A stretch of 64,000 bases of DNA from Prevotella sp. (lineage in GTDB: Bacteria > Bacteroidota > Bacteroidia > Bacteroidales > Bacteroidaceae). Position 1 is the first letter of the stretch. Every line of letters begins with the position of its first letter. The DNA lies in contig JAGCDZ010000006.1 of assembly GCA_017650905.1 (NCBI GenBank), positions 1-64,000 of the forward strand. Reading direction: 5' to 3'. A model generated the notes under the pieces. It saw only the letters and a list, made by a program, of their open reading frames with translations. It did not search any database and had not been told where the DNA came from. A program made the translations under genes and the position numbers. This document shows, one piece after another, positions 15,785-50,320 of this stretch.

Positions 15785-15802
15785 ACTGTTATAGTTTACA
15801 GA

Positions 15803-16933
15803 TTATAGCCAATGCATCAATGCACGGAGATAGGCTGCCAATTCGGCAGCCATTTTTTCGTGCTGCCAGATGCTGGGGTGCCAGTCGTTACCCATGCCCA
15901 AATCGCCGTTCTGAGGAGTGAAGTTAAAGCGGTAAACTTCTTTGTCGCCAGCCTTATTGGCTTCTGCTGTCACCTCATCGAGAATCTGTTTGGCAATCTC
16001 CAGTTCCTTGCCGTTTAGCATCGAACCGCAGAGGAACACGATTTTTGCCTTTGGGTTATGATCGCGCACCAACTTTAACAATCGCTGATAACCTTGCTTG
16101 AGCAGTTTCACATCGTAGTTGTTGGTAGAAAGGTCGTTGGTACCGAGGTTAATGCACACTACATCAGGCTGATAGCGGCTGAAGTCCCATTTCTCACGCA
16201 AGAACGTGGGGCCTTCGCGTAAACTCAGGTCGTAGGCATAGCCCGTATATTCATATTGTACAGGCATACACGAGCGAGGAGAGCCCGTTTTAGCTTCGCC
16301 ATAGTTGCGATAGGCACCGATGCCGCTGCGGGCTACTACCCAATGCTGGGCTTCGAGTGTACGGGCTGTCAGCGAGGCATAGCTGAAGTAGTGATTTTCT
16401 GTAGCGTAGTCGAAATGTTCCTCGCGTTTCAGACCTTCGTTACCATAGCCGCAGGTGATGGAATTACCGATGAATTCAATCTTTCTTGAGGGTAGGGCAG
16501 GCATCTCTATCAGCGATCTGCCTTTATCCAGCACAAAGCCCCAGAACTCCGGAAACATCTCGTAGCCCTCGATGATATACATCAGTCTGACGGTATGACG
16601 GCCATCGGGCAGGGCCGTTGCCAAAGTCACCACAGAGTCGTTCTCGCTGCGGAAGGCTACCTTGAAAGGCTCTGCCTGGTCTATCTGTGCCATGAAATAG
16701 CCGCTTTTGGGCTTGGCTATCATCCTGATGGAAGTGCCCTCGAAGGCTGCAATAATCTGAATGCCAGGATAGTTCCATGCAGGACGCTGAGGATTGCTGA
16801 AACTGATACGGCCTGTATATTGGATCAGTTTGTTGGCAGGACTGATGACACTTCCCTTGACGGGTGCCGTTTCATTGGCAAAAGCCAACTGGCAGCAAAG
16901 GGCCAATATAGCGATGAAATAGGCTCTTTTCAT
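15803..16933 (-). CDS. Secreted SGNH/GDSL esterase, carbohydrate esterase family 2-like
   Basis: A 376-residue secreted hydrolase. A signal peptide (MKRAYFIAILALCCQLAFAN) precedes an N-terminal jelly-roll domain (about 25-140) and an SGNH hydrolase domain. IEFIGNSITCGYG (about 152-164) holds the nucleophilic serine, VCINLGTNDLS the oxyanion asparagine, and GNDWHPS near residue 353 the Asp-x-His of the triad. This two-domain order is that of CE2 acetyl esterases, which remove acetyl groups from plant polysaccharides. The substrate is inferred. Confidence 0.87.
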   Translation of the reverse strand: MKRAYFIAILALCCQLAFANETAPVKGSVISPANKLIQYTGRISFSNPQRPAWNYPGIQIIAAFEGTSIRMIAKPKSGYFMAQIDQAEPFKVAFRSENDSVVTLATALPDGRHTVRLMYIIEGYEMFPEFWGFVLDKGRSLIEMPALPSRKIEFIGNSITCGYGNEGLKREEHFDYATENHYFSYASLTARTLEAQHWVVARSGIGAYRNYGEAKTGSPRSCMPVQYEYTGYAYDLSLREGPTFLREKWDFSRYQPDVVCINLGTNDLSTNNYDVKLLKQGYQRLLKLVRDHNPKAKIVFLCGSMLNGKELEIAKQILDEVTAEANKAGDKEVYRFNFTPQNGDLGMGNDWHPSIWQHEKMAAELAAYLRALMHWL

Positions 16934-16936
16934 ATT

Positions 16937-16964
16937 GTTTACAGTTTACGGTTTACAGTTTACA
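16937..16964. repeat. Four GTTTACA-type heptamers
   Basis: GTTTACA, GTTTACG, GTTTACA, GTTTACA with period seven, between the esterase start and the end of the metalloprotease gene. The metalloprotease stop codon (16962-16960, minus strand) lies inside the last unit. Same unit as at 799-890. Confidence 0.85.
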
Positions 16965-19530
16965 GCTTTCCGGATTCATACTTCTCACGGATCTTCTTGA
17001 TGCGCAGTAGCAGATTCTTGTAGTGCAGGCCATTGATGCCGTCGGCCTGCTGGCTCTTGAGATAATTCTCTACCTTGTCCAGATGCTGCTCGATAAAGAG
17101 GATGGCATCAGAACGCTGTGCAGCCGTGTTGCTGGTGTTGGTAATAATCGCACTTGTAGAAGTCGAACTGCTTGTGGATGTTGGATTCAGTGCCGTTCCC
17201 AAGAAATCGACATAACTGCGCTGCTGCTGGCGACGGAAGTTGTTCTGCTGTTCGTTGCTGTCGTTGAGCGGTTTCCAAACCATTGCAAACACATCGTCGA
17301 GATATTCGCTGACAGGATAGGCCTTATCCGACTGTAGATTGGTATTGTACAGATTCATGATGGCATTGGGAGCGAGGAGTGATGCGATGACCGTCTGCTG
17401 GCGTACGCGGATTTCCTCGGCATAGTCGGTGCCCAGTTTGTTGATGATGCTCTGCGGATAGAGCCACAACGGCGCTTCCATCACATTGCGATCCATCCAC
17501 TGCATGGCCTCTTTCTGCAATTCCTTTGGCACGATGTCGTAAGGCAACTGTCCAGGGGCGTTGTTGGTGTATTTACCATTGAGGTAACGCTGCACATGGT
17601 TGGCATAGCGCTGATATTGTGCTCGGCAGGCATTGAAGATGGAACTCAGGTCTTCATACTGGCCGTCGGGCTGTGCAGTCCACTTCTCAATGTTCTGCAT
17701 CACGCGCTTCAGGTTCTTCAAGCCATATTCGTTGGCTTTCATCTGGTTGTCGCCCAGATCCTCAGTCTGAGAACGGGGATCTTGTGAGTGACCTTCGTCA
17801 CCACTCCACCACAAGCGACGGTTACCTTGAAGCACTTTGCTTACCTCTGCCCTCAGGGCTTTCTTCTCCTTGGCAGGATCCTTGAACTCAGGACGGTACT
17901 GGTAACCCCACTTGATGGCCCACTTATCGTAGTCGTTGATACGGGGAAAGAGCCCCTTTTCACCAATCTTGTCCTCAGGCTGTGCCACATAGTTGAAACG
18001 GGCATAGTCCATGATACTCGATGTGTGGCCATATTTCTCCACCCAAGCCTTATCGCGCAGCTTCTCCACAGGCGTAGCCTGCGAGGCAATCATATTGTGG
18101 CGCAAGCCGAGGGAATGCCCCACTTCATGGCTGGAGACAAAGCGGATCAGCTGTCCCATCAGTTCATCGGGGAAATTCATCGTCTGTGCCCGTTTATCAA
18201 GCGCACCGCACTGGGTCATATACCATTTCTTTACCAGATTCATCACATTGTGATACCAGCAGATATGGGCTTCGATAATCTCACCGCTGCGAGGGTCTAC
18301 AATACGCGGACCGTAGGCATTCTCTGTCTCGGAGGGCAGATAGCGGATCATGGAGAAGCGGGCATCGTCGACCGACATCGTCGTATCGTTCTCAGGGAAT
18401 TCCTTGGCGATAATGGCATTCTTGAATCCTGCGGCTTCAAAAGCGACGTTCCAGTCATCAATGCCGGCCTTGAGGTATTTCACCCATTTCTTCGGCGTGG
18501 CTGGGTCGATATAATAGACAATCTGTTTCTTGGGTTCCACGAGTTTGCCGGCCTTATAAGCATTCAGATCTTTCGGCTCCAGACGATAGCGTGAGATGAT
18601 GGACTCATGATCGGTGGTCTGCTGTTCATCGCTGAACTCTGTAATCTGATTATTGAAATAACCCACTCGATTGTCGAAGTAGCGGGGCTGCATAGGATTC
18701 TTTGGCAACAGGACAATCGAGGTGTTCAGTGCCAAGGTTACCGAACCTGAATTAGAGGCCGGAGTTCTGGCGCTGCTGTTCATACCGTAAGTGCGCAGCG
18801 TCTGAATCTCAACATTAATGGGGAAGGTCTTGATGCTGTCGATAAAAGTACGATCCGCCTGAACGGCAGTAACACCAACCGATGTGCGGTCAGAGGCCGT
18901 GAAGCTGGTAATCTTATTATCCGACATCAACCACTTGGTGATGCTGATCAGCTGATCCTTGGTTTCAGGATTACGACCGATGACATCAAACTTATAGATG
19001 ATAGGGTCGGCTGTTGACTGTTTCAGGGAGATGGCAATTCGGTCGTCAGGATTAGCCAGATGCGACTGTACATATTCCCGCAGGAAGATGCTTTTCGGGC
19101 CATATTGCTCCAGATAGATGGCGGAGTGGTTCACTTCCTCGCCACTGAACGACCTGAAGCCCTGTGGTGTGCTGGTGAATCGGGTGACGGCGAGCATCAT
19201 GCGACCCAATAGGGAGTCGGGCACTTCGAGATACCAGTCATCCTTGATATGACGCACGGTAAAGAGACCATACCTCACGCTGCCTTTCTCTTTCACAATC
19301 TTGTGATAGGGGTCTGTATGGTCTGTGACAGTGGTGTCCTCACAGCAGGAGTTCTTCTTTGGCGTCACTGCGGTGGAGTCGCAATGGGTATGCGTGCTAT
19401 CGCACACGACCGGCTTCGTCTGTGTGGTGTCGGAGGGGTTAGTAACTGCAAAAGTCGCCTGCTGTCCCATCAGGAATAGCATAGCGACTATGAAACTCTT
19501 TTTGGTTTTGTTGATAATCTTTGCTTCCAT
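16960..19530 (-). CDS. Secreted zinc-dependent metalloprotease (metzincin, DUF5117/DUF4953 type)
   Basis: An 856-residue secreted protein. A signal peptide-like N-terminus (KKSFIVAMLFLMGQQATFAV) precedes a DUF5117/DUF5118-type N-terminal half with the run KIVKEKGSVRYGLFTVRHIKDDWYLEVP. The catalytic zinc motif HEVGHSLGLRH is at residues 468-478, followed by SIMDYARF, the Met-turn of metzincins. Cysteine- and Ser/Thr-rich stretches lie near both ends, including SSSTSTSAI near the C-terminus. It would digest proteins outside the inner membrane. It stands beside a SusC/SusD pair, and this may make the group a protein- or peptide-use locus. Confidence 0.9.
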   Translation of the reverse strand: MEAKIINKTKKSFIVAMLFLMGQQATFAVTNPSDTTQTKPVVCDSTHTHCDSTAVTPKKNSCCEDTTVTDHTDPYHKIVKEKGSVRYGLFTVRHIKDDWYLEVPDSLLGRMMLAVTRFTSTPQGFRSFSGEEVNHSAIYLEQYGPKSIFLREYVQSHLANPDDRIAISLKQSTADPIIYKFDVIGRNPETKDQLISITKWLMSDNKITSFTASDRTSVGVTAVQADRTFIDSIKTFPINVEIQTLRTYGMNSSARTPASNSGSVTLALNTSIVLLPKNPMQPRYFDNRVGYFNNQITEFSDEQQTTDHESIISRYRLEPKDLNAYKAGKLVEPKKQIVYYIDPATPKKWVKYLKAGIDDWNVAFEAAGFKNAIIAKEFPENDTTMSVDDARFSMIRYLPSETENAYGPRIVDPRSGEIIEAHICWYHNVMNLVKKWYMTQCGALDKRAQTMNFPDELMGQLIRFVSSHEVGHSLGLRHNMIASQATPVEKLRDKAWVEKYGHTSSIMDYARFNYVAQPEDKIGEKGLFPRINDYDKWAIKWGYQYRPEFKDPAKEKKALRAEVSKVLQGNRRLWWSGDEGHSQDPRSQTEDLGDNQMKANEYGLKNLKRVMQNIEKWTAQPDGQYEDLSSIFNACRAQYQRYANHVQRYLNGKYTNNAPGQLPYDIVPKELQKEAMQWMDRNVMEAPLWLYPQSIINKLGTDYAEEIRVRQQTVIASLLAPNAIMNLYNTNLQSDKAYPVSEYLDDVFAMVWKPLNDSNEQQNNFRRQQQRSYVDFLGTALNPTSTSSSTSTSAIITNTSNTAAQRSDAILFIEQHLDKVENYLKSQQADGINGLHYKNLLLRIKKIREKYESGKL

Positions 19531-35262: not shown

Positions 35263-36627
35263 ATGTTGTATAGGAAGATTTCATCATACATCGAGGACTA
35301 TCTGAAGTCTGATACTGACAAGATCCTGATACTGGAAGGAGCGCGCCAGATAGGTAAGTCGTTTAGCATCCGCGAAGCAGGCCAACGACTATATCCAAAC
35401 TATGTGGAAATTAACTTCGTGGAGGATGACGAGGGCGAGCAACTGTTCAAGAACATCCATAAGAAGGAGGATTTTTACCTGACTCTCAGCATGGTTGCTG
35501 GTGACAAGCTTAACCATCACGATGATACGCTGGTATTCCTCGACGAGATTCAGCACTATCCTCAATATCTCACCATGCTGAAGTTCTTACGTGAAGATAA
35601 CCGCTACCGTTATATCGCCAGTGGCAGTCTGTTGGGCATTGCCCTACAAGACACGACCTCTATCCCTGTGGGTAGTATCATCATTAAGGATATGTTCCAG
35701 CTCGATTTCGAAGAGTTCCTGATAGCCAATGGCTTCGGCATCGATGCAATTGCTTTGCTCCGCCAATCCTACAAGAATCGCCAGAGCCTTACTGAGGAGC
35801 ATCACAACCACGTGCTCGATCTATTCCGTCGATATCTGTTGGTTGGTGGACTGCCCGATGCTGTCAATACTTATCTTGAAACGCATAACATCGTAAAGGT
35901 ACGAGAGGTACAGGATGGCATCCGTAGTCTTTATGCCAGCGACGCTTCCAAATATGAAAAAGAACATAAGAAGAAGTTGCTCATTCGTCGTATCTACGAA
36001 ATGATACCTTCGCAGATGGAAAACAAGAAGAAACGCATCGTGGCTCAGGAAATACGTGGAAAGGAAGGTGACCGTTTCGATCAGTACAAGGAAGAGTTCG
36101 AATACCTTATTTCGTCTGGTATATCTTTGGCTGTTCATGCCATATCCAATCCTCACTTCCCGCTGAGTGAGTCGCTGCAGAAGAATCTGCTGAAGCTATA
36201 TCTCAATGATGTGGGCCTACTAACCGGCTTGCTATATCGTAATAACATTCGTCCAATTCTTGACGATATACGCAGCATTAATCTTGGTTCCGTCTATGAA
36301 AGTGTGGTGGCTCAGGAACTGCGCGCCCATGGCCACAAACTCTTTTATTACGACAACCGCAAACAGGGTGAGGTTGACTATCTGGTTGACAACCACGCGA
36401 CAATGAGTGTCCATCCGATTGAGGTCAAATCGGGTAAGGATTATACGGTGCACAGTGCCCTCAATAATCTTCTGAAGAAACCAGAGTATAATATTCTTGC
36501 AGTCACTGTCATTTCCAACGAACGAAAGTTCTATCAAGAAGAAGAGGTCACTTATATGCCCGTCTATTTCGTGATGTTTATGGAAGCCGGTACGCCTCAG
36601 ACTGATGAAAGTGACTACATTTTCTAA
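35263..36627 (+). CDS. AAA ATPase with DUF4143 domain
   Basis: A 454-residue ATPase of the AAA_14/DUF4143 family, common and mobile in Bacteroidetes. Walker A GARQIGKS is at 26-33, Walker B ends in FLDEIQHYP (near 92), and the sensor block YRYIASGSLLG follows. The DUF4143 part (from about 215) contains LYLNDVGLLTGLLY and a PD-(D/E)xK-like core FYYDNRKQGEVDYLV...PIEVKSGK (E/D...E-x-K), as in restriction-like domains. Function is unknown; toxin, regulator and defence roles have been proposed for relatives. Direct repeats surround its promoter. Confidence 0.85.
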   Translation: MLYRKISSYIEDYLKSDTDKILILEGARQIGKSFSIREAGQRLYPNYVEINFVEDDEGEQLFKNIHKKEDFYLTLSMVAGDKLNHHDDTLVFLDEIQHYPQYLTMLKFLREDNRYRYIASGSLLGIALQDTTSIPVGSIIIKDMFQLDFEEFLIANGFGIDAIALLRQSYKNRQSLTEEHHNHVLDLFRRYLLVGGLPDAVNTYLETHNIVKVREVQDGIRSLYASDASKYEKEHKKKLLIRRIYEMIPSQMENKKKRIVAQEIRGKEGDRFDQYKEEFEYLISSGISLAVHAISNPHFPLSESLQKNLLKLYLNDVGLLTGLLYRNNIRPILDDIRSINLGSVYESVVAQELRAHGHKLFYYDNRKQGEVDYLVDNHATMSVHPIEVKSGKDYTVHSALNNLLKKPEYNILAVTVISNERKFYQEEEVTYMPVYFVMFMEAGTPQTDESDYIF

Positions 36628-36727: not shown

Positions 36728-37861
36728 TTAAATGATCCCATATTCGCGTTTTAACCACAACTCAAACAATGGGTCAACGAATGAGTACTCATCCCGATTC
36801 TTCTCGACTAAGTCTTTTTCAACAAGGGTCCTTTTGTTCCTTGTGATAGTCTGTGATTGGCCAAGGTGGTATTTCTCAACCACATCTTTAGCATTGAAAT
36901 GTGTTTCACCTGCGGCGACTGCCTTCAATAAGGCAATCTGTGATGGAACCAGCTCGTCAAGTTCATTTTGGAACGTTTCCCCATTGGTGTCTATCACCAG
37001 ATCAAGTTGGCGATCCAGATCCTCATCTGTTACAATGCTTTCCGTATGCGACCATACAAAGAAACAATATTGCTGAACATACCACGAATTATATTTTACC
37101 TTTTCACACAACTTTTCTGCCTGTTCCTCCGAAATATGCTTTCCTGTGGCTTCAAAGTTGTTGACGATATATGGCAGCCAGTATTCCTTAGATATTCTCT
37201 TCAACTGCATCATTTGGCCGAATTTGTAAAACGGGCTGCTGGAGTTATTGAAGATTTTCTTCATCATATGCATCTTACTTCCGTACAGGCAGTAGGTGGT
37301 ATGATGCTGCAATTGCCACTCAGACCGTAGCATCGATTCCAGTCTCTCCCAGTGGGGGATATTCGCTAATTGCTGGAATTCATCGATACAGATTATGACA
37401 CGGATGCCTTTCTCGATAGCAATCTTCTCGGGCAACTGAAGGATGGTCTCGGGATTTTCTTTCAAAGGGTTTATCTTCAAGTCCACCTCAATAGAATTCG
37501 TCGGGTCACTTGCAATGGTAATGCTGGGCGTCAGTCGGTTGATGAACCTGAGGAAGTCTCCCCACTTCTGCTCCAAGGTAGAGGATACGCCTTGGATAAC
37601 AGCTGATGCAAATTTATTATAGAATTCTTCTTCCGTATGCAGTTTATAAGCATCCAGGAAACATACCCTGACTTTTTTATCTTCTTCCACAAGTTCCCTC
37701 ATGGCTTCCTTTACCAATGATGATTTCCCCCATCGTCTTGGTGAAACCAATATCGTATTTATTCCGTGACTCAGAAAGTTTTTCAACTCCTTTCTATCCT
37801 CTACTCGGTCTATAAAACTCTTTGCCTCAGCTAATCTTCCGTATTGAAAAGGTACTTCCAT
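36728..37861 (-). CDS. Archaeal-type P-loop ATPase (STAND-like)
   Basis: A 377-residue ATPase. Walker A is SPRRWGKSS (40-48) and a Walker B-type IICIDEFQQL lies near residue 155. The C-terminal third is a winged-helix region (ALLKAVAAGETHFNAKDVVEKYHLGQSQTI) and ends EYSFVDPLFELWLKREYGI, the typical end of these 'ATP-binding protein' genes. They are frequent in Bacteroidales accessory regions without known function. The start follows two overlapping -7 elements and an inverted repeat. Confidence 0.82.
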   Translation of the reverse strand: MEVPFQYGRLAEAKSFIDRVEDRKELKNFLSHGINTILVSPRRWGKSSLVKEAMRELVEEDKKVRVCFLDAYKLHTEEEFYNKFASAVIQGVSSTLEQKWGDFLRFINRLTPSITIASDPTNSIEVDLKINPLKENPETILQLPEKIAIEKGIRVIICIDEFQQLANIPHWERLESMLRSEWQLQHHTTYCLYGSKMHMMKKIFNNSSSPFYKFGQMMQLKRISKEYWLPYIVNNFEATGKHISEEQAEKLCEKVKYNSWYVQQYCFFVWSHTESIVTDEDLDRQLDLVIDTNGETFQNELDELVPSQIALLKAVAAGETHFNAKDVVEKYHLGQSQTITRNKRTLVEKDLVEKNRDEYSFVDPLFELWLKREYGII

Positions 37862-38494: not shown

Positions 38495-39313
38495 TCAGAC
38501 TTTATTTATCCTCGGATATACTTTATATAATAAAGACTGTTGAATACGGCAATCTACCTTTTCTTTCAAAACTGCTTTTATTTCATCAGACTCGATCTTA
38601 TTTATTCTCTCCCTTACATTGAATGCTAGGTCGCCATTCTCTCGAACAGGGGGATATGGTGACAACATAACATTCGATACCAATCCGCTCGCTTTGTAAT
38701 CGCATGGTATTTTCAATAATGTCTCTTTGATGGAATCCTTAACTAAGAATATCCGTACCTCATTTTCGTAATTGAAAGCTTTTCTTTTCAATAACATTAG
38801 CGACAGATAATGTTCTCGGTTCATTAGTGAAGGGAAATATACATTGTAATATGCCGATGTTGAGTTGTGCAAACCTTTGATATCCTTCTTTTCAAATGAG
38901 TAATTAACCCTCCCTATAAATACATCAAAACCATTTGTTGATGCATAATTATCCAATAATTCAAGTAATATATCTTTTTCTATAGATAGTCTAACCGTTT
39001 TATTGTTTGAACCTGCGTACACTCTCCAACAAGCATCCTCGTTAGTGGATGATTTCTCAGACACACACATACATACAATATCTTCAGTATGATATCCCCT
39101 TGAACTACAGTCTATTCCAAAATACAACTGTTCAAAAGGGTCATACCATGTTTCAGGTGAAACAAAAACCAACTCTTGGTTATCGACCGAATTGATAAAT
39201 CTGTCCATGGGCATATACTTAAAGACAGTACTTTTATCTTTTGGAAACGAATAACCGTTCAGCATATAAATATGCGAATAACCAGACTGTTTACTACTTG
39301 TTCCAATCTTCAT
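38495..39313 (-). CDS. DUF2971 protein
   Basis: A 272-residue soluble protein of the DUF2971 family. The N-terminal signature is present: VFKYMPMDRFINSVDNQELVFVSPETWYDPFEQLYFG (about 31-67), followed by IVCMCVSEKSSTNEDACWRVYAG, in which a cysteine and the W-x-x-Y/A pattern are typical. Members are frequent in defence islands and beside phage genes; no activity is established. It is the last gene of the island on the minus strand, 144 bases after the HAM1-kinase gene, and may be read from the same transcript. Confidence 0.8.
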   Translation of the reverse strand: MKIGTSSKQSGYSHIYMLNGYSFPKDKSTVFKYMPMDRFINSVDNQELVFVSPETWYDPFEQLYFGIDCSSRGYHTEDIVCMCVSEKSSTNEDACWRVYAGSNNKTVRLSIEKDILLELLDNYASTNGFDVFIGRVNYSFEKKDIKGLHNSTSAYYNVYFPSLMNREHYLSLMLLKRKAFNYENEVRIFLVKDSIKETLLKIPCDYKASGLVSNVMLSPYPPVRENGDLAFNVRERINKIESDEIKAVLKEKVDCRIQQSLLYKVYPRINKV

Positions 39314-39457: not shown

Positions 39458-41113
39458 TTAATTGCCAAAATCTATTGAAAGTGGGTTAATCACTTCATGA
39501 GTATCACTCTTTACCACATATTCTCTACCTATATAATGATTGATATGTCTCAAAATTTTTATAGCTTCAGAATAGCCTATAGGCGAAATCCTATAACGAT
39601 TCTTCCGATTCACACACTGGACTTCATAATATACATAGAAAGCCTGATTAAAATAGCGGCTGACATTATTTTTACTTCTACTGATCAGTTTAAAATAATT
39701 GTTGACAAGATGAGCGATTTCTGTTGTTGTATACCAGCGTGATTGGTCTTTCCCGAATTCCAAAGCCAGCGTTATTAGGATTGCCCTTTCCAGTGAAATT
39801 TTCATATATTTCAAATCCTCATTTGCAATGTTAACATGCTCTTTTTTCTGATTTTTCAGAAATTTCTTTTCAAAGCATTTATATACATCAACAACTTCTG
39901 TAGTATCATTTGAAATAGATATTATTCCTTGCATATTTGCAATTTCACCGATGCCCATGCTCTCTTGCACCCTATCAATAGCTCTGAATCTTTCTTCTGT
40001 ATAGTTATCTTTCTCTCTCTGTCTTAGTTTCCAACGTCTGAATCTTTCTTCAAAACTTGTATTAACAAAAACCAGCTTTAAGCGTTCAGCATGGAATCTA
40101 GTTATGAAATCTAATAATTCACCCTTTGTTCTGAAACCTGTTATGATAAATCTATCATAAATATTGTTTCTATGCATGTATTCTATAAGTCTGTTCACCA
40201 CAAATACAGGTTCCGTTTTTAATACATTAGCTGCAAACAAGTGCTTATCCACCTTTGATCGAGTACCATGAGTATCTAAGCGCTTGTGTGTCATAAACTC
40301 ACTAGCCTCTATGTGATAATAGCCATAATCATCTACTAGATGCTTACCAAGTGTAGATTTACCAGAACATGTCCTTCCACAAACAACAAAACTATCATAG
40401 AATTCGAGAGATAACTGGTTGGGTATTTGTCGTTTATCTTCGATAGCGCCATAGGTCTTTAAGAAAGAGAGCATCTGCTTAAAGGCTTCTTTTCTGAAAT
40501 CTCCCGCATCAGCATTAGTAATGTCAAGCATGCTGACAGGGAGATCATGGCCATCTGGTACAAACCATTTGTTAAAGGTCTTATCATCAAGCCATGGATA
40601 GAGGATGTTTGTATCAAAATTGTGTTCCTTGTCAGTCACATTGCCGTAAACAGTGCTCTTAAAGACTTTATAGTCATCATAAATGCCAGAATTCTTTTTA
40701 AGTTCTTCCGTGAGAAACAAAATAATGTGTGAGGTGACACTACACTTCCGGTTATTTCCATGTTTTCTCAGTTCTGCATCTAGTTTTTCAAAATTGATTG
40801 ATTTCATCCAGTACTTCACATCAACTCCTGGTACCTCATTTTCTTCATCACTTAATGCGTCCAATCTCATAGATGTATCCTCTATGAAGAAAATCCTGTC
40901 TTCTGATCCAGACACATTTCTTTTCCATCTTGCAGCAGCATCGTAGAAACTTGCTGTCAAGAGTTGTTTCCTGTCATAAATCCTTGGCTCATCATATCCT
41001 ATGCCATAATAAAACTTCTTATAGGATAAGATGTTGACATTATAATCCCTGCATAGGTATCGTGCATGGGCCAATTTAGTTTGGTTCGACGTGACAAAAG
41101 TTAAATCAGTCAT
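39458..41113 (-). CDS. Fusion of HAM1/ITPase-like domain, P-loop kinase-like domain and winged helix
   Basis: A 551-residue protein with three parts. Residues 1-225 follow the HAM1/RdgB NTP pyrophosphatase pattern: LTFVTSNQTKLAHARYL (T-x-N-x-x-K, 4-20), FFIEDTSMRLDAL (75-87, replacing the AEDSGL block), PGVDVKYWMK (95-104) and a late WFVPDG...FRKEAFKQMLSFL. Residues 240-415 are a nucleotide or dephospho-CoA kinase-like P-loop domain (VVCGRTCSGKSTLGKHL, with GRTCSGKST 246-254) with an R-rich lid (ERFRRWKLRQREK). Residues about 436-530 look like a winged helix. It overlaps the GHMP-fold gene by eight bases. I infer a nucleotide-handling enzyme with a regulatory domain; the domain order is new to me. 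Confidence 0.75.
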   Translation of the reverse strand: MTDLTFVTSNQTKLAHARYLCRDYNVNILSYKKFYYGIGYDEPRIYDRKQLLTASFYDAAARWKRNVSGSEDRIFFIEDTSMRLDALSDEENEVPGVDVKYWMKSINFEKLDAELRKHGNNRKCSVTSHIILFLTEELKKNSGIYDDYKVFKSTVYGNVTDKEHNFDTNILYPWLDDKTFNKWFVPDGHDLPVSMLDITNADAGDFRKEAFKQMLSFLKTYGAIEDKRQIPNQLSLEFYDSFVVCGRTCSGKSTLGKHLVDDYGYYHIEASEFMTHKRLDTHGTRSKVDKHLFAANVLKTEPVFVVNRLIEYMHRNNIYDRFIITGFRTKGELLDFITRFHAERLKLVFVNTSFEERFRRWKLRQREKDNYTEERFRAIDRVQESMGIGEIANMQGIISISNDTTEVVDVYKCFEKKFLKNQKKEHVNIANEDLKYMKISLERAILITLALEFGKDQSRWYTTTEIAHLVNNYFKLISRSKNNVSRYFNQAFYVYYEVQCVNRKNRYRISPIGYSEAIKILRHINHYIGREYVVKSDTHEVINPLSIDFGN

Positions 41114-42086
41114 ATTCCAAGATTCTACCAGAATTGTTAAATGAGGTCTTGTAACATTTGCCTCCTATTAAATCTGTATTTACCCGATCAACAACGCCAT
41201 CAATATCTTCTCCAAAGAAATAAAGCAAAGGACCTAAACTTGACAAACCTACACATTTTGCGCCAGCCTTTCTTATCAACGATTCGACAACCTTCAATTC
41301 ATCTCCATACAAATCTCGCTCCAACGATTTCCATTTGGTTCCCTGAATCGAATCCACTGATTTACAGAAGGTATTGAAATCATTCTCTAACAAGGAAGAC
41401 GATATTCCATAAACAGATTCGTACAGAATATTCTCAACAGCCACTTTTCCAATCGGACAACTTTTATCAAAAAATGCCTTTTCCTCATTTTCAGTCTTGT
41501 TTTGGATTGGAGGTATGCATATACCCATTTCCCATCCAGGCAAACTTATATTCTTAAAAATGAGAGGTTTGCGATAATCGTCACCTTTAAAGCATGATGA
41601 AGGAGCTAGGTCTCTGTCTGTATTGTTTGTTACACCTGTATCGAATACAAATCCACCTTTGAAATAAGTACTAATTCCAATTCCTGATGTTCCGCCTCTT
41701 CCTGAAAGCTTCACCACATCGTTGTTCGTGTATTCTCTTTTGTTTTTTATTAGTAGAGCTTCAATGCAAGAAAGATAAACCATTGTACTTGTACCAAACC
41801 CATAATGCGAATATATCTGGCTTTCTTCGATGACACAACGGAATCCTTCCGCGAGATGTTCATCTTTCATCAGTTTATTCAAATGATTGTTAAGACGAAA
41901 TAGTTCATTCTTCGAAAAGCCCTGACTACGCTTGTCCAAAACATAGATTTCCCCATCTGGTTCAAATCTCATATTTAGCGTTGGAGATGCTATCGAGAAC
42001 CCTATGCCACCATTGATCCGGTATCCCTCTCTGTTCATCCCGATCAATGTGATATGTATTCTTGGAAAAGCCTTTATTTTAAGCAT
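41106..42086 (-). CDS. GHMP-fold enzyme, beta-RFAP synthase-like
   Basis: A 326-residue protein of the GHMP superfamily. Its closest match is beta-ribofuranosylaminobenzene 5'-phosphate synthase, which joins PRPP and an aromatic acid with loss of CO2. The N-terminus KAFPRIHITLIGMNREGYR fits, as does the GHMP loop YGFGTS (95-100). The strongest signature is GRGGTSGIGISTYFKGGFVF (129-148), which matches the R-G-x-x-S-G-I-G...G-G-F-x-x-D-G block of that enzyme. The archaeal pathway that uses it (methanopterin) is not expected here, so the reaction is probably different. Start at 42086 (ATGCTTAA overlap, eight bases) rather than the longer frame. Both neighbours overlap, so translation is coupled. 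Confidence 0.75.
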   Translation of the reverse strand: MLKIKAFPRIHITLIGMNREGYRINGGIGFSIASPTLNMRFEPDGEIYVLDKRSQGFSKNELFRLNNHLNKLMKDEHLAEGFRCVIEESQIYSHYGFGTSTMVYLSCIEALLIKNKREYTNNDVVKLSGRGGTSGIGISTYFKGGFVFDTGVTNNTDRDLAPSSCFKGDDYRKPLIFKNISLPGWEMGICIPPIQNKTENEEKAFFDKSCPIGKVAVENILYESVYGISSSLLENDFNTFCKSVDSIQGTKWKSLERDLYGDELKVVESLIRKAGAKCVGLSSLGPLLYFFGEDIDGVVDRVNTDLIGGKCYKTSFNNSGRILEYD

Positions 42087-42798
42087 GCTCTGCCTCTTTT
42101 GCCTGGTCCCACTCTGAATCAAAATAATCAAGATAATTAATCGCCATTGGGCTAGAGCTCATAACATGCAAGGCTGGAGTGTTGCGGCTTTCTATGTCCG
42201 GAAAAATCGGTCCTATAATACACGTATCGTCAATTCTAAAAATGCTATGAGCTGCCTTATGCTCAAAATATCTTATTTCAAGATTTTTATGATTAATCTC
42301 ATTCTTCCTTGCTTTCACTTCTTTTGCATCTTGCCGTTTCTCATCGTTAGGAAGATTATCCTCACTAGGCAATAGTATTCGCACTTTCACCCCCCTATCC
42401 ATAGCCAATAAAAGAACTTTTGAGTTTTCAGGAGCGCCCTTGGTCGTATCAGCAAAGTCACGAAACAACCTGACCGCAGTAGAGCCCATCACATCCAATT
42501 TCCTTGTTGCGCTCTTAATATATTCACAATACTGTTCCTTTGTCCTTCTGTTATACAACACTTCAACCAGTTTTAGTTCTTTCAACTTTTCCGTTTCTTG
42601 ATATTCTTGCCATGATATTAAGAATTGGATAATGGCAACTAATAATCCTGCTATCAAGCTACCAAAGATGGCCCCCCAATTACTACCAGGGTTATTTTCC
42701 CTCCAATATAGAATCCCCACAATTATTAGCAACATAACAAGTATCGAAAGAACTACAATACTCATTGACATCTTAAATTTCTTTGAAAAAAGCTTCAT
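42079..42798 (-). CDS. Two-helix membrane protein with phospholipase D-like domain
   Basis: A 239-residue protein. Two membrane helices lie at about 12-31 and 41-62. A short coiled stretch leads to a cytosolic PLD-like domain: YCEYIKSATRKLDVMG (90-105), GVKVRILLPSEDN (136-148) and HSIFRIDDTCIIGP (184-197). The last is an H-x-K-x4-D motif with H184 and D191 kept but K replaced by Ile186, so catalysis is doubtful, and only one HKD-like motif is seen. Start ATG 42798 lies one base after the methylase stop. Such a membrane anchor with a degenerate PLD fold could be the effector of the operon. Confidence 0.7.
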   Translation of the reverse strand: MKLFSKKFKMSMSIVVLSILVMLLIIVGILYWRENNPGSNWGAIFGSLIAGLLVAIIQFLISWQEYQETEKLKELKLVEVLYNRRTKEQYCEYIKSATRKLDVMGSTAVRLFRDFADTTKGAPENSKVLLLAMDRGVKVRILLPSEDNLPNDEKRQDAKEVKARKNEINHKNLEIRYFEHKAAHSIFRIDDTCIIGPIFPDIESRNTPALHVMSSSPMAINYLDYFDSEWDQAKEAEHA

Positions 42799-42799
42799 A

Positions 42800-43885
42800 T
42801 CAATATCCAATTAATAAATATTCTCTATTCAACTCCGCATCTCTATTTTGTTTATTCAATGCATACTTATAATGACGGTAATAAACGTCAAGATGCTCTT
42901 TATATTTAAGCATAATGGTAGTCAACTCGTCTATACTAGGAGTTCCTCCATATCTATATGACAATACAATAATGCTATTTCTATATTTTCTAATCAACTT
43001 TTCAAAAACAGCATTTGCCTCAGCAGGCTTAAAGTAATTTGGAGCAAAAGATGCCTTTATTCTCTTATTAAGTGTTTCCCAATCTATTAAGTCTGGCCAT
43101 TCATTATATCTTGCTAGACCTTCTAGAAAATGATAACACTTCAAATAATCAGAACTCTCATTGTCCTCTCCACATTTTTTTAGATATGGAGGATCCAAAT
43201 ATACAAGATCAAAATGTCCAGTCTTAATAGAAAAAACATCCCGGCATATTGCTTTGCATTTCTCTGAGGAACAATACACAGAATTGTTAATTTCCTTAGC
43301 GAAAGAAAAGAAATGCTCTGAGAATGGTTTGTCCCATGTATTTTTATTACCAAATCCACGAATAACATCCCTTGTCCTCATTTCAAGGTTCTTTCGATGA
43401 AATAAATTATATGGTCTCTTAGCCAAACACGACTGAAACAGTGCGTTATACGCAATCGCCTTTTTGTATTTTAATTTGCTACCATTATATATGGAGCTCA
43501 GGGCTTCTATATTATATACAATATTGTCAAGCCACCGATTTTCCTCATCAAGATAATAGATACTATGAAAGTTATTTGAAATAAAAGAATTGGTGTTCTC
43601 GTTTTGAGCTAACAACAAGTTTATATCTTCATCTGACAAATATACTCTATTATTCTCTATAATAGATTCACCAATAATTTGGTTAAACCGATACAGATCA
43701 TTATATGTTACGCTCTTGTCCATTCTCTTAAACAAGCAGCTCACCACACCACTTCCTCCAAACGCATCAAGTACAGTATGGAATTCATATCTTTCTAAGC
43801 ACTCAAAAAGCCATGGAAGAATCTTACGCTTACTTCCCTGATAGCGTGTGGAGGGAATGCTTTTCAGTTTTTCGTCGATTATCAC
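42800..43885 (-). CDS. DNA adenine (N6) methyltransferase, Dam/D12 class
   Basis: A 361-residue class D12 methylase. The N-terminal RYQGSKRKILPWLFECL contains the conserved Y-x-G-S/G-K. SAM motif I is AFGGSG (41-46), motif IV is DPPY (231-234). Such enzymes methylate adenine in short sites such as GATC or GANTC. No restriction enzyme partner is next to it, so it may be solitary or belong to the operon's own system. The GTG start at 43885 overlaps the TGA of the ATPase upstream (GTGA), so the five genes are coupled. Confidence 0.9.
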   Translation of the reverse strand: MIIDEKLKSIPSTRYQGSKRKILPWLFECLERYEFHTVLDAFGGSGVVSCLFKRMDKSVTYNDLYRFNQIIGESIIENNRVYLSDEDINLLLAQNENTNSFISNNFHSIYYLDEENRWLDNIVYNIEALSSIYNGSKLKYKKAIAYNALFQSCLAKRPYNLFHRKNLEMRTRDVIRGFGNKNTWDKPFSEHFFSFAKEINNSVYCSSEKCKAICRDVFSIKTGHFDLVYLDPPYLKKCGEDNESSDYLKCYHFLEGLARYNEWPDLIDWETLNKRIKASFAPNYFKPAEANAVFEKLIRKYRNSIIVLSYRYGGTPSIDELTTIMLKYKEHLDVYYRHYKYALNKQNRDAELNREYLLIGY

Positions 43886-45147
43886 GGCTTCAACAAATTT
43901 ATCGGAGCCACAAATACCCCGTCCTCTCTCTTATAAGCACCACCAACAGCAGTCAACACCAGCAAGAATGACGGAGTCTTCTCATCACTCTTCTCCACAA
44001 TCTTGTTGCGCAGCGTTATCAGAGACGATGCTCCCTCTTCAATAAGGTCATCACCCCCCAACTTAATCTCTATACCACCCCATCGACCATCTTCCAGTTT
44101 TACCACAGCATCACACTCCAGTCCGGTATTGTCACGATAGTGCTTCACCGTACCACCCAGCGTGTCAGCATAAACCCTCAGGTCTCTTACGGCAAAGTCT
44201 TCAAAGAACAACCCAAAGCTATTCAAGTCCTTCATTAAGTCTGCCGGACTCACGCCCAGACTACGACACGCTATCGATGTATCCACAAAATGCCTCGTCG
44301 GTGTGCTCCTGATTGACGTTTTCGACCTGATGTTTGGATTCCAAGCCTCCATATCCTCAATGACATACAAGTCTTTCAGTGCCTCCATATAGTCATCATA
44401 TGTCTTCACATCCATCGTGCGTTCATTGCTCTGACGTATATCAGCGATGATGGTTGACACAGCGGCTTCCGTCGAAATATTCCGCGCATAGCTCCTCAGT
44501 ATCATTCTAAGCACCTCAGGCTTTTTATTCCTGAACCGCTCATTCTCACTGTCCTCAAATACAAACAACCCATTATAATAGTTCTTCGTGATTTCAAGCG
44601 CGAATTCCTTCTGTGCCAACACCGACACGGGCCATCCACCACGACAAAGTAAAAAAGCCACATCTTCCAGTGTGAAATCCTGATTCATATCCCAAGGAAA
44701 ATTCTCACCACCTTCAAACAAGTCTCTAAGTGATACAGTACCCTTCGACTCTTTCGATTCCCATAGTGTCATCGGCCTCATTTTCAGTGGCGTTATTCTC
44801 CCGGCTCCACTATGGTGAACTTCTGTCTTATCTGCAGGTGTCGAACTTCCCGTCAGGATATACTTTCCAAATTCATAGTTAAAATCCAGATCATCCTTCA
44901 CTTGGTTCCAGATGTCCGGAGCCTTCTGCCATTCATCTATCAATCTCGGTTTATCTCCGTTCAAAACGGCTTTAGGATTCATCCTGGCCATCATGATAGA
45001 CTGTTTCGTATTCAGTTTCACGAAACTCTTCTGGTAGAGCATACACGTAGTCGTCTTACCGCAGAACTTCGGACCTGCCACGACCACAGCACCTGATGTA
45101 TTCAACTTCAGAGCGATTTCGTCTTCTATAAGTCTATTATAATACAT
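43882..45147 (-). CDS. AAA ATPase with DUF4143 domain, first gene of the coupled operon
   Basis: A 421-residue ATPase of the AAA_14/DUF4143 family. Walker A is GPKFCGKTT (25-33), Walker B is LIDEWQKAPDIWNQVK (about 72-87), and GKYILTGSSTPADKTEVHHSGAGRI follows. The C-terminal nuclease-like fold has GLECDAVVKLEDGRWGGIEIKLGG (E/D...E-x-K), as in many of the family. Start at 45147 (MYYNRLIEDE) because it lies ten bases after TATCTTTG; longer versions would start before or in the promoter. It overlaps the methylase by four bases. Confidence 0.87.
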   Translation of the reverse strand: MYYNRLIEDEIALKLNTSGAVVVAGPKFCGKTTTCMLYQKSFVKLNTKQSIMMARMNPKAVLNGDKPRLIDEWQKAPDIWNQVKDDLDFNYEFGKYILTGSSTPADKTEVHHSGAGRITPLKMRPMTLWESKESKGTVSLRDLFEGGENFPWDMNQDFTLEDVAFLLCRGGWPVSVLAQKEFALEITKNYYNGLFVFEDSENERFRNKKPEVLRMILRSYARNISTEAAVSTIIADIRQSNERTMDVKTYDDYMEALKDLYVIEDMEAWNPNIRSKTSIRSTPTRHFVDTSIACRSLGVSPADLMKDLNSFGLFFEDFAVRDLRVYADTLGGTVKHYRDNTGLECDAVVKLEDGRWGGIEIKLGGDDLIEEGASSLITLRNKIVEKSDEKTPSFLLVLTAVGGAYKREDGVFVAPINLLKP

Positions 45148-45156: not shown

Positions 45157-45217
45157 CAAAGATACACAAAAAACTTAAATTCCCAAAATTTTCAGAAAAA
45201 AATTCCCAAAATTTTCA
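45157..45217 (-). promoter_or_regulatory. Promoter with tandem 18-base repeats, head of the five-gene operon
   Basis: Minus strand TTTG (45187-45184), 19 bases, TATCTTTG (45164-45157). The 18-base sequence AAATTCCCAAAATTTTCA (plus strand) occurs perfectly at 45177-45194 and 45200-45217, offset 23; the TTTG element lies inside the first copy. The remaining 220 bases to the FRG gene contain no feature I can support. Confidence 0.75.
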
Positions 45218-45437: not shown

Positions 45438-46124
45438 TCACTTCACCCTCCCTACATACCTCTTATGATGTATCTGCACAATCTCCTGACTCAAACTATC
45501 CAGCGAAGGCATGATATACGATCTCGTCATTCCTATCTTTTCCAACTTATTCAAGATATTCACCTTCGCACCTGCCGGTATGATAAACTTCGTCATCACG
45601 TGCTCCGACATCTGATCCTCCCAAGGCCTTGAATACAAGGTAAATAACCCATTCTGGTTCTTATACCTCACATCCGTAATATTTGGAATCAATATTGAAA
45701 GGTGCGGGAATGTCAGAATATCATCTTTGTTTTCATCAAACAAGTGATACTCAAATGGTAAACAATGATACACCACCCCCGATTGATTAAAATTCTTATT
45801 GCATGCAAAATACAAGGCAATTAGCGGGTTATAGGTCCAATCCAGCAGTCTTGTTGGCAAACCATAGTGTTGCCCCAAGAATAAAAGCTCTTTATCATTC
45901 TTAGGCCTCACATCAGTAAACATCGCATACTTCCTCTTAAAGTCATCGAAGAGTTCCTTTTCAAACTGTACCAGCACGCTCTCCTCTCCTTCCGTATAGT
46001 ACCGGCCAATAGATGGAATTAAAGGATAATCCTCTCTTGACAATCCCCGAAAGAAATCCACTTCGGAATAGATATCCAGAAACCCTAGATAGTTCTCCAA
46101 TGATGTTATTATACGCTCAACCAT
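45438..46124 (-). CDS. FRG domain protein
   Basis: A 228-residue protein with a single FRG domain, named for its FRG motif, here FFRGLSR (24-30). YPLIPSIGRYY, LLFLGQHYGLPTRLLDWTYNPLIALYFAC (about 91-119) and the following strand are the rest of the signature. FRG proteins are common in phage-defence and toxin settings, but their activity is unknown. It overlaps by 16 bases the remnant of a GIY-YIG gene, from which it may get its translation. Confidence 0.88.
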   Translation of the reverse strand: MVERIITSLENYLGFLDIYSEVDFFRGLSREDYPLIPSIGRYYTEGEESVLVQFEKELFDDFKRKYAMFTDVRPKNDKELLFLGQHYGLPTRLLDWTYNPLIALYFACNKNFNQSGVVYHCLPFEYHLFDENKDDILTFPHLSILIPNITDVRYKNQNGLFTLYSRPWEDQMSEHVMTKFIIPAGAKVNILNKLEKIGMTRSYIMPSLDSLSQEIVQIHHKRYVGRVK

Positions 46125-46346: not shown

Positions 46347-47285
46347 TTATATTTCTTTGTTCATTTTTTTTAGTATTCTATTAATGTCTTCACGCCCGGA
46401 AACAAATTCTTTTGTAGAAGGAATATATGCGAGATCTTTGCTGCCACCAGGATATAACAATATCATATCAATAACCAATCCTTTCATAAATTTCGAAGCA
46501 TTTTCTTTTTTTACAAAGAATTGCAAGCACCCCATGTTTATTTCTTCTTCAGGATATATTGTCTCTTTTGAAGATCTACTAAACTTAATTCTATGTTCAT
46601 TTAATGCTGTGTATATAAGTTTCTCCCCAAACACCTCATTCCCAATGTCACAATAACGATAATTATTGATGTAGTAATTCAGCTTAAAAGACTCGCAAGC
46701 TTGATGCCCAACATTCAGCACATTTGCCATTAATTCGTAAATAATCTCATTTTCATTCTCCTCCGCTTTATAAAATGAGCATCCTGTAATTTCTAATTTG
46801 GGAATCGAAACCCTATTATACAAGTCTTTAACTTCATAATCTTCCATTGGTTCTGATTTGAAGTTAAATCGTTTGTAATAACGTTTGTCTCTTGCCATAT
46901 GAGGTGCATTACTACTTCTTGGTGTTTTAACCACATAGATGGATTGTCCTATATCATCAACCCTTATTGGATATATCTTTACTTCTTCGATCCTTGGCTG
47001 AATTAGTAGTATTACATTTTCCAACCATTCTTTTGTATAGACTCTACCATCAATAGGGTTAATCTCTTTGGGTCTGTGATCTTCCTCAGATACTCCATAG
47101 ACAATAATACCACCATCAGAATTAGCAAACGCAGAGATATCTTTAGTTATTTCCGTACGTTTTTTGTCATCCTTATCCAATGCTCCAGCCGCCTTGTAAT
47201 CAAGGTGTATGTTTTCTTCTACCTCATTTATAATAAGGTTGTTGATGTCTTCTATTGAATAACTATCTTTTTTAAAAAATACCAT
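46347..47285 (-). CDS. Schlafen/AlbA_2-domain ATP-binding protein
   Basis: A 312-residue protein. The N-terminal AlbA_2 (Schlafen-type) domain runs about 1-155: ENIHLDYKAAGALDKDDKKRTEITKDISAFANSDGGIIVYGVSEEDHRPKEI is the signature (E-x-D-K and F-A-N-S/T-x-G-G-x-I-x-x-G-V). The rest (about 165-312) is a beta-rich domain not recognised. Such proteins are frequent in defence islands, sometimes as DNA- or RNA-binding regulators or nucleases. It is preceded by the decayed GIY-YIG 5' end and followed by another GIY-YIG fragment after four bases. Confidence 0.82.
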   Translation of the reverse strand: MVFFKKDSYSIEDINNLIINEVEENIHLDYKAAGALDKDDKKRTEITKDISAFANSDGGIIVYGVSEEDHRPKEINPIDGRVYTKEWLENVILLIQPRIEEVKIYPIRVDDIGQSIYVVKTPRSSNAPHMARDKRYYKRFNFKSEPMEDYEVKDLYNRVSIPKLEITGCSFYKAEENENEIIYELMANVLNVGHQACESFKLNYYINNYRYCDIGNEVFGEKLIYTALNEHRIKFSRSSKETIYPEEEINMGCLQFFVKKENASKFMKGLVIDMILLYPGGSKDLAYIPSTKEFVSGREDINRILKKMNKEI

Positions 47286-48901: not shown

Positions 48902-49281
48902 CTATTTCGCCATAAGCCTTCCCTTTACCACGTCATATTCAAATTTCCGATAAGGCCTATACGTATCTTCTTGATCTATTTTCGTCCATATTACAATATT
49001 CGGGTATTTCTGATTGTCCCTCACTACAATATGATCGATACCTATCACAAATATGGGCCTGGTGCAGCTATTATGCTTTGCAATCTCATCACCCAACGAT
49101 GAATGCTCTTGTATGTGTCCATCCGCCATTCCTGCACCCGCCCTTTAATATCCATATGGATATTCTTTCGTTTCACATACACATTAGCAAAATATGCCAA
49201 ATCAAAGCCACCACTACGTATCTGATGACCAAGAGTATGACATTTTATATTTATGGAGACATATTTATCATATCTTCTCAA
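48902..49281 (-). pseudogene. Frameshifted small gene of unknown function
   Basis: Two overlapping frames, 49281-49045 (MRRYDKYVSINIKCHTLGHQ) and 49129-48902 (MADGHIQEHSSLGDEIAKHN, ending VVKGRLMAK), together look like one gene of about 125 residues interrupted by a frameshift near 49130-49145. The first overlaps the HNH gene's stop by 14 bases. I recognise no domain. Confidence 0.45.
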
Positions 49282-50320
49282 ACTCCGACTTAAAAAAATC
49301 CATAATCCCCAATACCGTCAGGATATCCTTCTTAAACTTGCTTAGCGGTCTCTCCATTCTTTCCGAATCGTACAACTCTCCACCGAACATTGACCGGTAT
49401 GCATCTGCCTTGCCTATATTCAGCCCAGCCATAATCTTCACTAAGTATTCCTCAATATATTGCTTACCGTTTTTTTGAAGCAGCCTCAGCAAGTCATCCA
49501 GTTCTGTTTCACTATGCTTCTTATAGAATGCCCTTAGTTGAAACGCATCTATCGTCTTTTTCTCTTGCCTGTCAGTATCATCAACAATAGTCACTTCCCC
49601 ATGCATCCTTGAATGGTCAATATAGTTAAAACTGAATCTGAACCGAGGATCACTATGCTTCAGATACGGATGAACATAATCGTTCAGATTAAACACCTGC
49701 GTACCTTTCACAGTCAGGTTGCAGATATGGCAGCATGGTATCAAATTATAGTAATTCAGCGACAACAACGGATATAATTCCTGCGAAAGGAAATGATCAA
49801 AATCTGGTCGGGCTATATGCTTGATTCTATCCTCTGGAGTCAGTTTCTCAACCGTATAGATATATTCTCTACCACAATAAGTACAGGTCCTAGTCCCTTT
49901 GGCTTTAGATAACCAATAGGCAAAATCCGAATTCCCCGATATCCATTGGTCATACTTGAACACCACTCCCAGCCTTTTCAGTGTATGGTCATAACGTCTA
50001 AATATCTCCTTTTCTTCTTTTTTCTTTGGGCTTCTCATCCGCTTGATGCGCTGATAGTCAGCCAATTCACCCTCATTATACGTTTTCTTCTCTGCTCTCA
50101 GCAGTTTCCTCATCAATTCATTGCATAAGCCCAAAGCCTCTTGTGGCTCGTCTGTCAACAGGCGGTGTATCACATCCCGGCTTCCTCTTGGTAGTAGAAC
50201 CTTTTTCAGCGAAGCCTTTTTTCTACCTGTATAACCAATAATACTGTCATACAGTTTCTGTTCCAACTTCTCAGTATAGATGGTCAAAATATCTTGAGTT
50301 GGCGATGATAAGTGCCACAT
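49268..50320 (-). CDS. HNH endonuclease
   Basis: A 350-residue protein with a zinc-HNH nuclease centre: CTYC (146-149), then FDHF (H176, the catalytic His position), and CHIC (197-200) before N201. An N-terminal alpha-helical part of about 140 residues and a C-terminal helical tail frame it. Similar HNH proteins act with ATPases in PtuAB-like and retron systems; no ATPase partner is adjacent here, but the gene just upstream (50326-50745) may be the partner or what remains of it. The five-base gap to that gene suggests one operon. Confidence 0.82.
   Translation of the reverse strand: MWHLSSPTQDILTIYTEKLEQKLYDSIIGYTGRKKASLKKVLLPRGSRDVIHRLLTDEPQEALGLCNELMRKLLRAEKKTYNEGELADYQRIKRMRSPKKKEEKEIFRRYDHTLKRLGVVFKYDQWISGNSDFAYWLSKAKGTRTCTYCGREYIYTVEKLTPEDRIKHIARPDFDHFLSQELYPLLSLNYYNLIPCCHICNLTVKGTQVFNLNDYVHPYLKHSDPRFRFSFNYIDHSRMHGEVTIVDDTDRQEKKTIDAFQLRAFYKKHSETELDDLLRLLQKNGKQYIEEYLVKIMAGLNIGKADAYRSMFGGELYDSERMERPLSKFKKDILTVLGIMDFFKSEFEKI

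Follow-up and report, generated by a model that had tools for sequence, protein, structure and literature searches.

A rare cassette built around a ribofuranosylaminobenzene-phosphate-synthase-like enzyme, kept in one gene order in Bacteroidales and Proteobacteria and possibly antiviral

Introduction

What does an enzyme resembling beta-ribofuranosylaminobenzene 5'-phosphate synthase (RFAPS) do in a Prevotella operon, between the genes for a membrane protein and a nucleotide-handling fusion protein? The operon occupies positions 39458 to 45147, on the minus strand, of the stretch of DNA analysed here (the window), which is the first 64,000 nucleotides of contig JAGCDZ010000006.1 of Prevotella sp. 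(GenBank assembly GCA_017650905.1). An earlier note, made from this sequence, had described it as five coupled genes whose enzymes could make or destroy a signal or cofactor resembling a nucleotide, the membrane protein then acting as effector. We find that four of the genes form a cassette that recurs in a single order in 24 loci of Bacteroidales and of Alpha-, Beta- and Gammaproteobacteria, that its RFAPS most likely makes, as predicted from sequence, a C-riboside 5'-phosphate that is not destined for methanopterin, and that an antiviral role is plausible but unproven.

Results

A conserved gene order

Read in the direction of transcription, the cassette in the window consists of a D12-class DNA adenine methylase (42800..43885), a two-helix membrane protein whose degenerate phospholipase D (PLD)-like domain gives a weak PLD match (42079..42798), the RFAPS, a GHMP-type enzyme and putative synthase of C-ribosides from phosphoribosyl pyrophosphate (PRPP; 41106..42086), and a HAM1-kinase-winged-helix fusion (39458..41113) whose open reading frame (ORF) encodes 551 residues, all on the minus strand. 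The methylase contains a DPPY motif and scores 45.7 bits against PF02086 (cut-off 22), so that its assignment in the earlier note holds, as do the five minus-strand ORFs and the junctions described there: a 1-base gap separates the methylase and membrane-protein genes (42800/42798), and 8-base overlaps join the latter to RFAPS (42079/42086) and RFAPS to the fusion (41106/41113).

A species-genome scan with the fusion as query returned 17 loci, which is a lower bound because the scan used two peptide patterns: seven are in methanotrophs, one is in a rumen Bacteroidales metagenome-assembled genome (MAG), and the rest are in Gamma-, Beta- and Alphaproteobacteria. The genes for the membrane protein, RFAPS and the fusion are adjacent in all 17, and 13 of these loci share the 8-base RFAPS/fusion overlap of the window. 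A tblastn search of plasmid records with RFAPS gave seven records. Two annotated Rhizobium plasmids list an adenine methylase, a hypothetical protein, RFAPS and a non-canonical purine NTP pyrophosphatase, which is the window's order, and profiles of the four families recover that order in two Cupriavidus records as well, with broken frames in locus L005; in the Mesorhizobium, Aminobacter and Neorhizobium records RFAPS is the only one of the four families that is matched. Two further genomes bring the total to 24 loci. The co-occurrence of RFAPS with the HAM1/kinase fusion, on which the earlier note had staked its proposal, is thus borne out: the two adjoin in the same order in all 17 genome loci found by the fusion query, in the four plasmid records with a fusion (one in broken frames) and in the two further genomes.

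The core of membrane protein, RFAPS and fusion is present in one order at all 24 loci, counting a few copies that are in pieces or truncated by contig ends (L013 has its membrane-protein gene, and L014 its fusion, split into two ORFs, and the fusion of L023 runs off its contig). Because the order is identical in 24 loci, the gene set is more than a chance association. Among up to ten distant representatives, mean identity is 40.1% for the methylase, 31.4% for the membrane protein, 36.9% for RFAPS and 40.5% for the fusion.

The methylase is the variable member. It is present in 18 of the 24 loci (in pieces in L005) and as a fragment in L014; it was not found in L013, L020, L063 or L022, the last of which offers only 518 bases upstream to look in, and the 292 bases upstream in L017 are too few to decide. 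The five loci without an intact methylase retain the core. The earlier proposal that the methylase marks self DNA is weakened by the four loci in which the gene was not found and the one that has a mere fragment of it: such marking is not essential to every version of the cassette. The 18 stretches upstream of the methylase showed no obvious common operator when read by eye; no motif search was made.

The fifth gene of the proposed set, an AAA_14/DUF4143 ATPase resembling PDC-S01 (43882..45147, minus strand), is co-transcribed in the window by position and overlaps the methylase gene by 4 bases (43882/43885). It is absent from the order common to the 24 loci, and we rejected it as a cassette member; DUF4143-type genes are common, and 3 of the 121 flanking ORFs examined at 15 loci encode such proteins. 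Bacteroidetes-type promoters have the consensus TTTG-N17-23-TANNTTTG, and one match to this consensus (45157..45187, minus strand) lies upstream of the operon's first ATG (45147), while none of the 15 matches in the window falls inside the operon, in keeping with the single promoter proposed earlier. Over the whole window, 15 matches compare with 1.76 expected by chance.

Distribution and mobility

The cassette is rare and scattered in distribution. Among 251 genomes of the order to which Methylovulum belongs, a HAM1-domain profile at E<=1e-10 matched 8, of which one was new and the seven others, the centre genome among them, had been found before; in the phylum of Methylovulum it matched 2 of 398 genomes (the centre genome and a new one), and in the order of Mesorhizobium 1 of 297 (the centre genome only). 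In the window's own phylum, the RFAPS search found 1 of 395 genomes, and in its order the full-length fusion was found in 1 of 295, in each case the window's own; at E<=0.001 the fusion matched 125 of these 295, and the matches outside its own genome are weak and partial (best 7.9e-12) and nearly all to the kinase part. Phage records and viral contigs gave no cassette match, in searches that were not exhaustive, the two viral scans having used a few peptide patterns each.

Signs of mobility include an integrase-like ORF adjoining a Cupriavidus copy and an integrase-like fragment at L063 (both read by eye), as well as a transposase-type protein in the flank of L008 (one match). Both Rhizobium copies adjoin a similar set of ABC-transporter genes, which suggests an insertion spot beside that set.

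The synthase

The GHMP-type, RFAPS-like assignment made in the earlier note is supported by sequence profiles: the window protein scores 153.8 bits against TIGR00144 (cut-off 113.5) and 183.7 bits against the equivalog model NF040726, below its cut-off of 328. TIGR00144 is matched above cut-off in 18 of 18 cassette genomes, and the best E-value of NF040726 against the other 20 cassette enzymes is 1.3e-56. The profile of the family (one ForT-like row included) has 6yqq as its best sequence match in PDB, a point of likeness to the ForT/PyfQ enzymes, and the cassette enzymes can be read against the residue roles given for ForT in two papers (PMC8183095, PMC9832568). There, an alanine variant of E211, whose counterpart in the window protein is E202, has no measurable activity, S21 and Q266 hold one carboxylate of the acceptor, and S142 is a phosphate contact.

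In the residue map, which covers 21 cassette enzymes (it leaves out L005, with its broken frames, and predates L062 and L063), R19, L24, R33, R135, S139, S174, E211 and K263 (ForT numbering) are kept in all 21. The T138 position is T in 17, A in three and V in one, and the T106 position T in 18 and S in three. By this map, cassette enzymes carry most of the PRPP-binding residues and the catalytic residue expected of a synthase of the ForT kind, though not S142. The acceptor side is changed throughout: S21 is replaced by H, Q266 by E and I37 by G in 21 of 21, while the rhizobial ForT-like enzymes retain S and Q at the first two positions. These changes are indirect evidence that the acceptor differs from the aromatic acceptor of ForT. 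The counterpart of R33, archaeal R26, affects affinity for p-aminobenzoate (pABA), according to PMC6787355; since R33 is kept, the cassette enzyme may use a pABA-like acceptor.

The cassette enzymes also differ from the copies that serve methanopterin. In a tree of 30 rows, from which L007 was left out as well because it is the same enzyme as L006, the cassette group (support 97/94), the ForT-like enzymes (99/98) and the methanopterin copies (100/100) are separate; the nearest relative of the window protein is a rumen Bacteroidales enzyme, 47% identical. Seven methanotroph methanopterin copies have R at 138, F at 24 and no counterpart of S174, and share with the cassette enzymes an H at the S21 position. 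The methanopterin-pathway gene mch occurs in 8 of the 18 cassette genomes and a second RFAPS in seven, the other 10 having neither; the window's genome (71.55% complete) is among those in which neither was found, and genome G694 (L017) has mch and only one RFAPS in a record that may be incomplete. On the clade, the residue differences and these 10 genomes we rejected a methanopterin role as the general one. The residue map, the tree and the genome counts together make a C-riboside 5'-phosphate that is not for methanopterin the most likely product, as predicted from sequence.

Two of the plasmid records outside the cassette deserve separate mention: in L006 and L007 (Mesorhizobium and Aminobacter plasmids of Lotus symbionts) purH and a gene of the SAICAR-synthase type lie close to the ForT-like enzyme (7986..9017), which may mark a rhizobial cluster for a formycin-type C-nucleoside.

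The fusion protein

The earlier note had read the last gene as a fusion of a HAM1-like pyrophosphatase, a kinase and a winged helix, and sequence profiles support the first two of these; the winged helix is read from the pattern of the alignment. The HAM1 domain (about residues 1-220, 40454..41113) scores 44.2 bits against PF01725 (cut-off 22.5), a family matched at E<=0.001 by 15 of 15 scanned members, and K13, E42, E78, D79 and R207, residues with known roles in HAM1 proteins, are invariant in 17 rows of an alignment without L014, L017 and L023, whose ends are broken, odd or truncated. SHR is the purine-recognition motif of HAM1 proteins. Because DFR stands in the fusion where the archaeal NTPase PH1917 has SHR, the domain may act on a base that is not one of the common deaminated purines. 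We rejected identification as an RdgB/ITPA purine house-cleaning enzyme on this replacement and on a TIGR00042 score of 24.3 bits, far below the cut-off of 145.35. The cassette's domain is also the sole HAM1-family match in the window's genome (G000), a housekeeping copy being missing perhaps as a result of its 71.55% completeness.

The P-loop nucleotide-kinase-like domain (about residues 240-420, 39854..40396), placed by profile and alignment, scores 33.3 bits against AAA_17 (cut-off 27); its P-loop lysine K252 is invariant in 15 rows, and its nearest PDB sequences are UPF0200/AdkA-like proteins. The winged-helix-like domain (about residues 438-525, 39539..39802) has no Pfam or PDB sequence match and carries the motif NNVSRYF. 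SRYF is kept in 17 of 17 methylase-type rows, including L013, in which no methylase was found; L014, with its methylase fragment, has SRYL, and the motif has diverged in L020, L022 and L063, all without methylase. Identity between this trio and ten chosen methylase-type representatives is 34.1% in the winged helix, compared with 46.8% among the representatives; the corresponding values are 46.6 and 48.3% for HAM1 and 31.7 and 36.5% for the kinase. That the winged helix diverges in methylase-less loci while HAM1 does not diverge more hints that winged helix and methylase read the same DNA site.

The membrane protein

Two hydrophobic segments are present in 15 of 17 membrane proteins, and one, at the threshold used, in L020 and L022; the alignment leaves out the plasmid copies and L013, whose gene is in two pieces, and the L014 protein is only 21% identical to that of the window. 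Regarding the degenerate PLD fold proposed for this protein, the loss of the lysine of the HKD motif stands (0 of 17 members have it) and the histidine is present in the window protein, but it is kept in only 14 of 17 and support for the fold is weak. By sequence, then, the family lacks the HKD signature of the phospholipase D superfamily. The charged N-terminus of several members indicates that the PLD-like part is probably cytosolic, and a catalytically dead PLD-like domain borne on two helices would be in keeping with an effector that reads a ligand.

Likeness to known systems

No described system open to comparison has the gene set of the cassette, which by mechanism may prove a variant of nucleotide-signal defence. 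In PADLOC-DB 2.0, no model was matched by RFAPS or the fusion at E<=0.5, the methylase is recognised by models of ordinary type II methylases, and the membrane protein gives weak matches to a two-transmembrane (2TM) effector model (E 0.0042) and to DrmC (0.025). No description of the gene set appeared among the literature matches listed, subscription papers aside, and neither of the two listed papers that mention ribofuranosylaminobenzene together with phage is on defence, judged by their titles and the beginnings of their abstracts.

ForT and PyfQ, of formycin and pyrazofurin, share R19, R135, S139, E211, S174 and K263 with all 21 cassette enzymes, which differ in having H, E, G and G at S21, Q266, I37 and S142, in forming a separate clade and in standing in a gene order without antibiotic genes. 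Likewise, the beta-RFAP synthases of the (tetrahydro)methanopterin pathways share family TIGR00144, the H at the S21 position and R33, and are set apart by the NF040726 score, the tree and the 10 of 18 cassette genomes without mch. HAM1/RdgB/ITPA proteins share PF01725 and the five invariant residues; unlike them, the cassette domain is fused to a kinase and a winged helix, has DFR for SHR and scores far below TIGR00042.

Among defence systems, one of the closest is Kongming (KomABC), in which KomB is a HAM1-like protein. Kongming uses a non-standard nucleotide, dITP, as immune signal, as described in PMC12948488 and PMC12774641, and the signal proposed for the cassette would likewise be a non-standard nucleotide reached by phosphorylating a monophosphate. 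The cassette differs in having a putative C-nucleotide synthase for the KomA step, its own kinase in place of the phage's and a membrane protein in place of the NADase KomC. Neither an adenosine deaminase nor an NADase is found among the four cassette proteins by Pfam and NCBIfam, the Kom sequences themselves not having been compared, and these family assignments set the cassette apart: it is not a Kongming member. CBASS and Pycsar systems with 2TM effectors likewise have a small membrane protein in which a soluble domain is joined to two helices, a likeness echoed by the weak PADLOC 2TM match, whereas the cassette has no nucleotide cyclase. In comparison with type II restriction-modification, a methylase is present and the common order contains no endonuclease gene.

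Gene neighbourhood

In the window the operon is surrounded by candidate defence genes: DUF2971 (PDC-S31, 38495..39313), FRG (PDC-S15, 45438..46124), Schlafen AlbA_2 (46347..47285) and HNH (PDC-M62B, 49268..50320). In L019, from a Gammaproteobacterial MAG (9001..17709), methylase and specificity genes of type I restriction-modification, together with a PDC-S11 gene, come directly after the cassette. Over 121 flanking proteins at 15 of the 17 genome loci, 176 PADLOC families were matched, compared with 33 over 87 proteins at seven methanopterin-copy loci of methanotroph genomes (95 ORFs minus seven RFAPS and one 1835-residue ORF), although such counts are a weak measure, as families overlap and the RecQ/helicase and MotB-like matches look like chance. 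The SduA, DarG, PDC-S24 and PDC-S71 models each had one strong match among the 121.

Elsewhere in the window, an ATPase_2 protein with a weak C-terminal helix-turn-helix match (36728..37861) and an ORF resembling, by eye, another AAA_14/DUF4143 ATPase (35263..36627) were seen. The Methylomonas-type loci L013, L010 and L062 have a small RelE/ParE-like toxin gene, also read by eye, upstream of the cassette.

Discussion

What, then, might the cassette do? We give a little over half of our confidence to its serving defence of some kind. Our preferred account, which is tentative, is a mobile cassette built round a C-nucleotide that is made, phosphorylated or hydrolysed, and signals to the membrane protein, with a winged helix tied to methylated DNA and abortive defence as the outcome. 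RFAPS would join PRPP to a small aromatic acid to give a C-riboside 5'-phosphate, which the kinase domain would phosphorylate and whose triphosphate the HAM1 domain would bind or hydrolyse; the winged helix, linked to the site that the methylase recognises, would gate the pathway on unmethylated or otherwise foreign DNA; and the nucleotide would act on the probably cytosolic PLD-like domain, whereupon the two-helix protein would disturb the membrane in an abortive response. Such a system would resemble the base-modified nucleotide signal of Kongming, with its own synthase and kinase. The active-site map fits the earlier idea that a signal or cofactor of nucleotide type is made or destroyed, with an effector role for the membrane protein. 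The fully specified form is an immune system whose second messenger is a C-nucleotide made from PRPP and a small aromatic acid; recognition of DNA at a methylase-marked site would gate it, and the dead PLD-like domain of the two-helix membrane effector would sense the messenger. With every detail included, this form is possible but rather unlikely. Support for a signalling cassette comes from the gene order in 24 loci, the separate RFAPS clade and its kept residues, the HAM1 and kinase signatures, the 10 of 18 genomes without mch or a second RFAPS, the pair of hydrophobic segments seen in 15 of 17 membrane proteins, the SRYF contrast, the rare and scattered distribution, the defence-type neighbours in the window and L019, and the precedent of nucleotide signals.

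Several observations weigh on the other side. In the synthase, H99 is kept in 19 of 21 enzymes and is N in L017 and L019, and S142 is G in all 21, as in the methanopterin copies. The window's membrane protein scores 21.2 bits against PLDc_2, below the cut-off of 27, only 6 of the 17 proteins in the family match it at E<=0.01, and there is no PDB sequence match. The methylase is dispensable in some loci, and the winged-helix contrast comes from one clade and so counts as one event. Of 30 flanking proteins chosen from the 121 and scanned singly, 22 had no PADLOC match at 1e-8, so that most copies seem to lie outside obvious defence islands, and methanotrophs are enriched among the hosts (8 of 251 genomes), which could speak for a part in one-carbon metabolism instead. 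Finally, what is established is the co-conservation and the retention of most of the PRPP-binding, catalytic and nucleotide-handling residues, from which we infer chemistry, signal, effector and defence.

Two other accounts are each unlikely. Viperin products are triphosphates that poison phage polymerases, and the cassette could be a comparable weapon in which RFAPS and the kinase make a C-nucleotide whose triphosphate does the same. HAM1 would then guard the host's own pool, and the membrane protein would hold the product in place or move it. A synthase and a kinase are what an analogue needs, formycin and pyrazofurin, from RFAPS relatives, are bioactive C-nucleosides, and HAM1-type house-cleaning fits self-protection; such a weapon, however, gives no clear task to the winged helix or to a membrane protein present in all 24 loci. 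Alternatively, the product could be an ordinary or secreted metabolite, a C-nucleoside or cofactor with no defence role, as would suit relatives that serve the methanopterin and formycin pathways, seven of 17 genome loci in methanotrophs and the mostly unmatched flanking proteins scanned singly. Yet the common order contains no further biosynthetic gene, whereas the rhizobial ForT-like enzymes have purine genes next to them; both mch and a second RFAPS are missing from 10 of 18 genomes; and the cassette is rare and scattered.

Less probable again is a restriction-like or addiction module in which the methylase guards self DNA, the other proteins act as a toxin against unmethylated DNA or loss of the cassette, and the nucleotide enzymes modify DNA or pools. 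The D12 methylase in 18 of 24 loci, the overlapping genes and the mobile neighbours (read by eye, plus one transposase match) are compatible with it, but the common order has no endonuclease gene and the five loci without an intact methylase retain the core. Kinase, pyrophosphatase and methylase are ingredients of known DNA-modification pathways and all three are in the cassette, but that a C-nucleotide is built into DNA or RNA, with methylase and HAM1 adjusting the pool, is very improbable, as the cassette has no polymerase or base-exchange enzyme and its product would be a ribo-, not a deoxyribonucleotide.

The described C-riboside synthases found in the literature serve methanopterin and a few C-nucleoside antibiotics. 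A mobile cassette that couples such a synthase, across phyla, to a kinase/pyrophosphatase, a methylase and a membrane protein would put C-nucleotide chemistry to a new use; if the cassette is defensive, its signal or antiviral nucleotide would belong to a class that is new in chemical terms. The residue map offers direct handles on the matter in the catalytic glutamate and the altered acceptor pocket. Kept from gut bacteria to methane-eating and plant-root bacteria, the cassette may be an undescribed, possibly antiviral, system.

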